A stretch of DNA of 64,000 nucleotides from Tsuneonella troitsensis (GTDB taxonomy: Bacteria; Pseudomonadota; Alphaproteobacteria; Sphingomonadales; Sphingomonadaceae), in assembly GCF_001441535.1 (NCBI RefSeq), contig NZ_LMAU01000003.1, forward strand, positions 372,001 through 436,000, read 5' to 3'. Within the stretch, counting starts at the first letter, position 1. Every line of letters begins with the position of its first letter. The notes under the pieces were generated by a model. That model made no database searches. It was not told the DNA's origin and saw only the letters and a program-made list of their open reading frames with translations. Below are positions 26,461 through 64,000 of this stretch, piece by piece. Both the position numbers and the translations under genes were made by a program.

Positions 26461-30310
<3,850 letters not shown>

Positions 30311-31114: not shown

Positions 31115-31201
31115 CAAGGTGACGAGGTCGCTCCACAAGGTGACGTTTCGACGCGCAAGGAGACACGAACCCCTCTGGACAGTGTGACAACTGTGACATG
31201 C
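31115..31201 (+). repeat. Phased CAAGGTGAC repeat array with TGTGACA block, locus 1
   Basis: Three units begin CAAGG(T/A)GAC at 31115, 31136 and 31156 (spacings 21 and 20 bp, the last unit 21 bp long). They run straight into GGACAGTGTGACAACTGTGACATGC (31177-31201), which holds two TGTGACA copies 9 bp apart. The array follows the DUF1801 gene and precedes the lipoprotein gene at 31282 in the same orientation. A second copy lies at 63368-63496 on the other strand. The even two-turn spacing suggests repeated protein binding on one DNA face; the function is unknown. Apart from it, the 231-base gap shows nothing else I can name. Confidence 0.8.
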
Positions 31202-62249: not shown

Positions 62250-63266
62250 TCACCAGAAGAAGTCGTAGATCACGTCGACCACTTCGCCGCTGTAGATATC
62301 TACCAGCAACGCATCGTCGTAGTACCGCACCCAGCGATAGGGGCCGTAAGCTTCCGGCAGGCGATACTGCCACGCGTCGTTGATCCAGTAGCGGCTACCG
62401 AAGAACACGCTGCCAAGGCGGAAGCCGATGCTCAGCCGGCTATAGCGATAATTGCTGTAGGGCGCGTAGTAGCGACCCAGCCGGTAGAGGTTCCGGTTGG
62501 AACTGCGATACTGGTACCAGTTGTAGCGATTGTCCCGGCGCCAGTCGTTGCTCCACCGACGATAGTCGCCCGAATAGCGGCGCTGGCCGTCGCGATAGTT
62601 GTCGGTGCGCACCCCGTCGCGATATCCGCTGCGATAGGCGTTCTGGGTCTGGCGCCGATCCTGCCTGTTATCGACCGTCCGACCGTCGCGATAACCGTCG
62701 CGGTAGGTGCGGTTGCGCGAGGTATCGCCATAGCTGCGATTGCGCTCCCACGTGTTGGTGCCGGACGAACGGTCGCGATCGCGGCTCCAGTCTCGCGAAG
62801 AAGTCTGACGAGCGGCGGCCTGCGCACGCGCTTGTGCCTGCGCCTGCTGCGCTTCGGCCTGGGCACGGGCGGCGCGCGCCTGGCCCCAGTCGTTGCTGGT
62901 ATTGCCGCGCTGGTTCCATTCGCGGCCCTGGCGTTCGGCCCCGGTCGCGCTGCGGTTGTCGCCGCGATTCCACTCCCGACCGCTGCGGGTCGGCGCCTGG
63001 GCACGGGCTTGGGCCTGAACCGGCGGCGCCTGATAGGTACGCTGCTGGCGTTGCTGTGGCGCGGCTTGTTGACGCTGTTGCGGCGCGGCCTGCTGGCGCT
63101 GGGCCCGCATGGTCTGCCGCGCCTCGCGCGCCTGCTGGCGAGCTTCGCTGCGGTCGGTACCGTCGCGGCGCTCCTGCGCAGCAACCGGCGCGGATATTGC
63201 GCCAAGCGTGGCTGCGGCGACCAGTGCCGACGCCCCGCATGCGCGCAGGATGGACTTCAAATTCAT
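62250..63266 (-). CDS. RcnB-family periplasmic protein, Arg/Gln-rich
   Basis: A 338-aa exported protein. Signal MNLKSILRACGASALVAAAT ending APVAAQ, a long low-complexity Gln/Arg/Ala/Ser/Asn stretch (about residues 35-260), for example REARQTMRAQRQQAAPQQRQ, and a C-terminal RcnB domain: AWQYRLPEAYGPYRWVRYYD and VDIYSGEVVDVIYDFFW. RcnB proteins help nickel/cobalt homeostasis, but this repeat-rich form may act differently. ATG 63266 is preferred, as the upstream extension overlaps the intergenic array. Confidence 0.85.
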   Translation of the reverse strand: MNLKSILRACGASALVAAATLGAISAPVAAQERRDGTDRSEARQQAREARQTMRAQRQQAAPQQRQQAAPQQRQQRTYQAPPVQAQARAQAPTRSGREWNRGDNRSATGAERQGREWNQRGNTSNDWGQARAARAQAEAQQAQAQARAQAAARQTSSRDWSRDRDRSSGTNTWERNRSYGDTSRNRTYRDGYRDGRTVDNRQDRRQTQNAYRSGYRDGVRTDNYRDGQRRYSGDYRRWSNDWRRDNRYNWYQYRSSNRNLYRLGRYYAPYSNYRYSRLSIGFRLGSVFFGSRYWINDAWQYRLPEAYGPYRWVRYYDDALLVDIYSGEVVDVIYDFFW

Positions 63267-63367: not shown

Positions 63368-63496
63368 GCATGTCACACTTGTCACACTGTCCAGAGGACT
63401 TTGTGTCGCCTTGGGCCTGGTGCCGTCACCTTGTGAGGACGCGACGTCACTTTGCGATGCATTGGTGTCGCCTTGTGAGCGGGGGGTGTCGCCTTG
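63368..63496 (-). repeat. Phased CAAGGYGAC repeat array with TGTGACA block, locus 2
   Basis: Read on the minus strand: five units with CAAGGCGAC, CAAGGCGAC, CAAAGTGAC, CAAGGTGAC and CAAGGCGAC (63496 down to 63393), spaced 21, 21, 21, 20 and then a final 21 bp, ending in GGACAGTGTGACAAGTGTGACATGC (63392-63368). The order, the short 20-bp unit and the end block all match locus 1 at 31115-31201. It follows the azoreductase gene and precedes the RcnB-like gene in the same orientation, 101 bases before its ATG. The rest of the 325-base gap (63267-63591) shows no gene. Confidence 0.8.
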
Positions 63497-63591
63497 CGAG
63501 GCCGTGCGGCCGGAAACGACGAATGGGGTGCGGTGGTTGGCCATGAATGCACAATGCCACCGCCGCACCCTTGTAGGAAAGACTAGCGAGG

Positions 63592-64000
63592 TCAGGCGAC
63601 CGGGCAGGCGGCGCCAATCTCGCGCACGGCGCGGTGTGCCGCTTCGAGCGCCGCGGCGCGCGGTTCGTCGCCCAGCGCCAGCCCTTCCGCGATCACGAAC
63701 TGCGGGACGGTGATGCCGATGAAGGCAAGGGCGTCGGTCAGGTAGCGTTCGGCGTGCTCGATCCCGCGCTGGGCGGTGCCGTGTCCATATAGGCCACCTC
63801 GCGCCAGCGCGACGATCACCTTCTTGCCGCCCGCAAGCCCCTCGGACCCGGTGTCGGTATAGCGGAACGTTTCGCCCGCGATCAGCACGCGGTCGATCCA
63901 CGCCTTGAGCTGCGAGGGAATCGTAAAGTTGTACATCGGCGCGCCGATCACGACGACGTCCGCCGCCTTGAACTCCGCCAGAACCTCGGCGGACTGGGGC
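63592..64000 (-). CDS. azoR: FMN-dependent NADH-azoreductase (partial, N-terminus outside)
   Basis: The reading frame continues past the window edge; 136 C-terminal residues are seen. VVVIGAPMYNFTIPSQLKAW is the flavodoxin-fold AzoR motif, followed by DRVLIAGETFRYTDTG, VIVALARGGLYGHG and FIGITVPQFVIAEGLALG. It reduces quinones and azo compounds using NADH and FMN. Normal for the family from this point to its end. Confidence 0.93.
   Translation of the reverse strand, partial: PQSAEVLAEFKAADVVVIGAPMYNFTIPSQLKAWIDRVLIAGETFRYTDTGSEGLAGGKKVIVALARGGLYGHGTAQRGIEHAERYLTDALAFIGITVPQFVIAEGLALGDEPRAAALEAAHRAVREIGAACPVA

Follow-up and report, generated by a model that had tools for sequence, protein, structure and literature searches.

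The phased array at 63371–63496 of the window (the whole 64-kb stretch of Tsuneonella troitsensis DNA analysed here) is present on direct inspection of the sequence, and its end block is the conserved element of a larger system. In transcript sense this core reads GGAC-NN-TGTGACA-NN-TGTGACA. It recurs at matching places in related species and genera, its 7-mers are recoded from genome to genome, and the recoding follows the recognition helix of a chromosomal TerS-like protein (the reader) whose own gene carries a copy of the block. The covariation and this self-site make it very likely that the reader binds the block. With moderate confidence, and as our best guess from sequence comparison, we further infer that the block is a transcribed, roadblock-type operator at which the bound reader stalls or ends transcription.

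Two copies lie in the window (Table 1). At locus 2 the array has five units, as a sequence-only reading of the same DNA had counted, phased at 20, 21, 21 and 21 bp rather than at the 21, 21, 21, 20 and 21 bp given there; the 20-bp step adjoins the end block. The unit core in transcript sense is AAGG[CT]GAC, with one mismatch in some units. As that reading stated, both loci lie between codirectional genes and share the end block apart from a single base (C/G); a pattern of the end block with 2 mismatches allowed has 2 matches in the window versus 0 in 100 shuffles. It missed the other conserved end of the locus 2 element, TTTCCTAC, and the start codon behind it. The small ORF is open through the block and stops at 63263. 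No TTTCCTAC lies near the locus 1 array. The claim that the element faces a gene for an exported protein holds at locus 2 (RcnB-like) but not as a general rule, the neighbours of copies including ruvA, lepB, ppdK, moaC and queE. Upstream of locus 2 stands a flavodoxin-fold gene, which we take to be azoreductase-like; T. rigui (L065) and G009 (L139) have the same upstream neighbour. Rfam matches in the window are one tRNA and a TPP riboswitch (RF00059) at 28305–28412.

Table 1. Features of the two loci, in window coordinates.
Feature	Position	Strand	Remarks
Locus 2 block, tandem 7-mer site	63371..63392	-	Transcript strand; reads GGACAGTGTGACAAGTGTGACA; end-block pattern on plus strand
Locus 2 promoter-distal 7-mer TGTGACA	63371..63377	-	
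Locus 2 promoter-proximal 7-mer TGTGACA	63380..63386	-	9 bp from distal 7-mer
Locus 2 array, five units	63404..63496	-	Plus-strand starts 63404, 63424, 63445, 63466, 63487
Locus 2 ATG, presumed start of leaderless small ORF	63542..63544	-	36 nt after first T of TTTCCTAC
Locus 2 TTTCCTAC, promoter-like motif (-35 position)	63573..63580	-	Other conserved end of the element
Gene downstream of locus 2	62250..63266	-	RcnB-like exported protein, PF11776
Gene upstream of locus 2, C-terminal part	63592..64000	-	Flavodoxin-fold protein, PF02525
Locus 1 block	31177..31198	+	Transcript sense on plus strand; end-block pattern on minus strand
Locus 1 array, three units	31115..31165	+	Starts 31156, 31136, 31115

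The T. troitsensis genome (2.9 Mb) holds 12 copies of the block, all with at most one mismatch though three were allowed; with so many further copies, the case that the sequence-only reading had raised against itself, two loci explained by one recent duplication, does not arise. Architecture was analysed in a subset of the copies, 134 from 14 genomes (left out were 12 of the 33 like copies of G016, 2 of the 11 of G012, the G001 and G005 copies except the queE copy, and the copies of G002 beyond 7 of its 18 counted pattern matches; seven chance matches outside the sphingomonads, L043, L048, L049, L052, L053, L073 and L074, the degenerate row L084 and duplicates between collections were dropped). 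Most copies belong to one directional module: TTTCCTAC (counted as T[TG]TCCTAC), a -10-like CTA/CCA roughly 15 nt later, then a start codon 35–38 nt from the first T of the motif, a small ORF, a T-rich stretch at positions -12 to -7 (T frequency 50–82% over the 134 copies) and finally GGAC-NN-7mer-NN-7mer. In 105 of the 134 copies the motif lies upstream at no more than 225 nt and is oriented towards the block; downstream of the block it points towards it in none of the 134 and away from it in one. An ATG at 35–38 nt is present in 89 of 110 motif-bearing copies (defined with a slightly looser motif and a 260-nt range), compared with 49 of 763 control windows at other offsets, and the motif-to-block distance is 102–113 in 63 of 95 copies. 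Because the start codon is so close to the -10-like motif, the transcript of the small unit is probably leaderless. Copies that lack the TTTCCTAC module lie 13–31 nt past the stop of a gene, or within genes.

The small ORF meets the block in all three frames (frame 0, 2 and 1 in 43, 38 and 14 of 95 copies), so that the peptide is not the conserved thing; a translated repeat or Cys-x-x-Cys peptide was rejected for the same reason. This also weighs against a leader-peptide attenuator, in which the small peptide or ribosome stalling would control the next gene. Of 95 copies with a start codon, 90 do have the ORF running open as far as the block, versus 28 and 75 for the two other frames, but the peptides are unlike each other and we consider such an attenuator very improbable. 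A general intrinsic terminator was rejected as well: the hairpin before the T stretch is convincing by eye at single loci (L170, L173) and weak on average (mean z -0.77, 91 copies). The block could instead act as RNA, a tandem transcript motif whose binding by a protein or small RNA sets the translation or decay of the next gene, since in every copy with the motif it shares the sense of the small unit, and at queE it stands 17 nt from the next start codon. The phasing of the array units at multiples of about 10.5 bp and the covarying HTH helix point to double-stranded DNA, and Rfam has no match at the element in the window or at nine other loci; a role as RNA is thus improbable.

The 7-mers come in several dialects: TGTGACA, TGTAACA with GGTCCA, TGTTCCA, TGTGTCA and TGTCAAC. 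A survey of 16 genomes with a general pattern (reversed-pattern controls, 0–5 per genome and strand) found 33 of 34 matches in G016 to be of TGTGTCA type (a small number of TGTGCCA or CGTGTCA among them), 15 of 15 in G004 to be TGTTCCA (two of them with one CGTTCCA) and 19 of 20 in G006 to be GGTCCA. TGTAACA and GGTCCA are mixed in G005, G012, G014 and, among the matches listed, G001, which suggests that recoding proceeds half-site by half-site. The places are shared across genomes. Among 48 groups of downstream genes, 26 are common to at least two genomes and one, presumably queE, to 11; these 11 genomes carry four site types at this place, with the architecture kept and the 7-mers differing. 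In G008, queE follows directly behind a motif of the TTTTCCAC kind, with no block. The QueE tree is mostly unresolved, with G009 grouping with G010 at 99/98. Between the block and the start codon upstream of queE, some genomes have a GTTCAG...CTGAAC hairpin (L080, L087, L088). Coding sequence is affected too: blocks inside the reader gene and inside a phage-lysozyme-like gene (PF00959) alter the encoded residues, and in the G004 reader even the frame, which speaks for a function of the nucleic acid. In the lysozyme-like gene of four genomes (L011, L127, L156, L169) the block separates the N-terminal part from the lysozyme part.

Dispersal and homogeneity within a genome are also what a mobile repeat of MITE or REP type, spread by a transposase, would give. 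It is already disfavoured, and we think it most improbable, in view of the orthologous positions across species and genera, the unrelated interiors, the two unlike ends without terminal inverted repeats (GTAGGAAA versus TGTCACA) and a recoding that goes hand in hand with a TerS-like protein rather than a transposase. Transposon ends of the Tn7/TniA type, suggested at first by the tandem repeats at the tip, were rejected on the orthologous places and the unlike ends. REP sequences with RAYT are dispersed chromosomal sites with a partner protein, and the present family resembles them in its dispersed chromosomal sites, lineage dialects and chromosomal partner; it differs in having a block without palindrome, no transposase, orthologous places and a fixed promoter module.

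The reader is an HTH protein, and the gene that encodes it, with the block inside, adjoins an rlpA-like gene. Ten of ten domains (seven from readers, three from paralogs) match the TerS profile phrog_4044, with a best E of 4.8e-27; the full reader protein gives 1.2e-16. Sequence matches of the reader among solved structures contained no TerS up to E 1, and its AlphaFold model, made from two sequences, is too poor to use (mean pLDDT 54). A block lies within the reader ORF in 34 of the 38 loci examined, themselves part of all reader loci found, and none was found in the other four. Recognition helix and dialect correspond in 30 of 30 loci (a count that ignores phylogeny), in three main classes: YRT occurs with TGTGACA (7/7), HQ[TS] with the GGTCCA group (17/17) and [PA]QT with TGTTCCA or TGCTCCA (6/6). 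Four readers with YGTCAAC-type blocks have the mixed helices FQS, HEA, PEA and HET, and G136 has four TGCTCCA blocks, yet its sole reader is of the HQT type. In the reader tree the HQ- and [PA]Q-type readers are largely clades. With the helix removed from the tree, G009 is placed apart from the main YRT clade, in one supported at only 80/89, suggesting that its helix–site pairing arose independently. G016 shows SRST beside TGTGTCA; it was left out of the helix count because its reader gene has a frame break just before the recognition helix, though the genome has 33 blocks (L193).

Reader and blocks also occur together. In a first set of 24 genomes a strong reader homolog (E < 1e-25) is present in all 13 with blocks and in none of the 11 others, whose matches are at chance level; G007, a Tsuneonella genome among the 11, has kept degenerate block copies. 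Across 149 genomes of the family, with reader presence defined at E 1e-15, at least seven block matches are found in 28 of 61 genomes with a reader versus 2 of 88 without (Fisher p 3e-11, ignoring kinship). G028 and G159 have many blocks and no reader match; 21 of the 61 reader-positive genomes have two pattern matches or fewer. A TGTCAAC pattern allowing 2 mismatches was applied to fourteen reader-positive genomes with 0–6 matches, and the prediction held in part: five (G094, G102, G112, G121, G126) have at least nine copies, of TGTCAAC or TGTCACA/TGTCAAC type. The remaining nine have at most five like copies (G144 five, G170 three, the other seven no clear set), and the controls G000, G006 and G011 gave 1, 4 and 2 matches.

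The resemblance to TerS makes packaging the main rival: the blocks would be pac-like sites at which the reader marks where the motor of a gene transfer agent or prophage starts. Three sources (PMC9611059, PMC4737164 and PMC6854486, jointly) place the pac site of P22 inside terS and describe that of SPP1 as direct repeats at the start of terS; they include a 2022 review that calls the binding of DNA by TerS unclear and controversial, and they give the TerS of RcGTA as lacking an HTH. With P22 and SPP1 our system shares an HTH protein matching a TerS profile, a self-site, direct repeats and a specificity pair, and a PF03237 terminase scored above cut-off in 8 of 12 genomes tested. On the other hand, no PF03237 or PF03354 large terminase was found in T. 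troitsensis, nor in G012, which has both reader and blocks. No reader relative was found in phages, in plasmids at E 1e-10, or in IMG/VR by a pattern scan, and the lack of an HTH in the RcGTA protein is a further mismatch. Unlike the phage pac sites, the blocks have many further counterparts at conserved places of the host chromosome, most with a promoter-like motif and small ORF that packaging would not need, and the neighbour of the T. troitsensis reader gene is the rlpA-like gene, not a phage gene. We therefore regard packaging as an unlikely account.

The 21-bp units are optional, at 0–6 per copy in fixed phase. Allowing one mismatch to the core AAGG[CT]GAC[AG], at least two phased units accompany 17 of the 55 copies of the TGTGACA dialect, in three of its seven genomes: T. 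troitsensis (6/12 copies), G003 (4/7) and T. rigui, G010 (7/13). The other 38 copies have no array, among them all those analysed from G002 (7 of up to 18), G008 (5), G009 (4) and a metagenome-derived genome (7). The first step, next to the end block, is 20 bp in 15 of the 17 arrays, across three genomes. Measured from the distal 7-mer, the units start at 33, 53, 74, 95 and 116 bp; these distances approximate multiples of 10.5 bp, which puts the units on one face of the helix. Alignment of the copies bears out the proposed constancy of end block and unit phase under a varying number of units. Comparison of related species at the locus between the flavodoxin-fold and rcnB-like genes gave 0 units in G009 (block and promoter, no array), 5 in T. 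troitsensis and 6 in T. rigui. Growth mainly by unit duplication, the explanation offered by the sequence-only reading, does not fit units that differ in sequence within one array while keeping core and phase, nor the many copies without an array. The units are probably extra sites added in one clade. The TerS-like gene L046, which has five internal units, was rejected as the array reader: of 15 genomes searched only G010 has a full match (the next best is at E 1.6e-13), which leaves the arrays in T. troitsensis and G003 unexplained by it.

The promoter-like motif extends beyond the block. TTTCCTAC with an ATG at the fixed distance occurs 19 times in T. troitsensis, 12 times in G004, 25 in G006, 12 in G016, 4 in G007 and 2 in G011, against 0–2 in controls. 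Of 38 reader genes, 37 have T[TG]TCCTAC or a close variant nearby. The motif, in either form, also stands before TerS-like paralogs in 40 of 42 rows that were selected without reference to it, a count that includes some genes twice. TTTCCTAC is found also ahead of a metallo-beta-lactamase-fold gene (which we assume to be gloB-like), of 35–36-residue peptides and of small ORFs with AAGGTGAC. The peptides form a family, membrane-like by eye, that starts directly behind TTTCCTAC at the leaderless distance in three genomes (L245 and L246 in T. troitsensis, L254 in G007, L272 in G016). AAGGTGAC, a second type of site, is present in the small ORFs L239, L243, L260, L261 and L263, doubled at 9 bp in the last two, and inside one group of TerS-like paralogs (L240, L255, L273, L303), with which it perhaps forms a parallel reader–site pair. 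Since AAGGTGAC is the core of the array units, the array may be a site of such a paralog, not of the reader. A broader possibility, to us a doubtful one, is that the TerS-like protein now forms an independent chromosomal system. It would read dozens of pac-like sites genome-wide, most of them within small leaderless transcription units, and the set would be recoded with the helix half-site by half-site; paralogs under TTTCCTAC would run parallel sets such as that of AAGGTGAC, and besides their part in regulation the sites may mark DNA for transfer.

As for the roadblock-type operator, pausing or ending of transcription by a roadblock would be in keeping with the fixed distance from promoter to block, the sense in which the block lies and the T-rich stretch. 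We envisage that the TTTCCTAC promoter starts a leaderless small transcription unit, that the reader sits on the block about 70 bp downstream, and that the bound protein makes transcription stall or end at the T-rich stretch that immediately precedes the block. Such stalling would control read-through into the next gene, and the internal site would let the reader control its own expression. Control of the next gene is not general: in copies with a gene called by our simple ORF caller the downstream gene is codirectional in 109 of 128 and opposite in 19 (e.g. L104, L112, L113, L118), and a conserved stretch between block and rcnB is possibly rcnB's own promoter. In a LexA-like regulon an autoregulated transcription factor coevolves with its operators, and the blocks are similar in having one site in the reader's own gene, conserved target places, and sites that change together with the DNA-reading residues. 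They differ in that the block stands downstream of the promoter in a transcribed stretch, sometimes in coding sequence, and in that the protein is TerS-like. The number of sites, about 12–33 per genome on both strands in several genomes, would also suit a role in organising the chromosome, as for the sites of nucleoid or partition proteins; given the coupling to promoter-like motifs and the position in transcribed stretches, we find this quite improbable.

No description of this element was found in the literature searched, a search that subscription papers mostly lay beyond. If our reading is true, the sites together are a natural code for recognition of DNA by TerS: dozens of natural protein–site pairs from environmental bacteria, in at least five dialects, are linked to a few residues of one helix, which makes the code directly testable. 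It would also give a relative of a virus packaging protein a new role on the bacterial chromosome, and would be a case of the coordinated, genome-wide rewriting of binding sites, including those inside genes.
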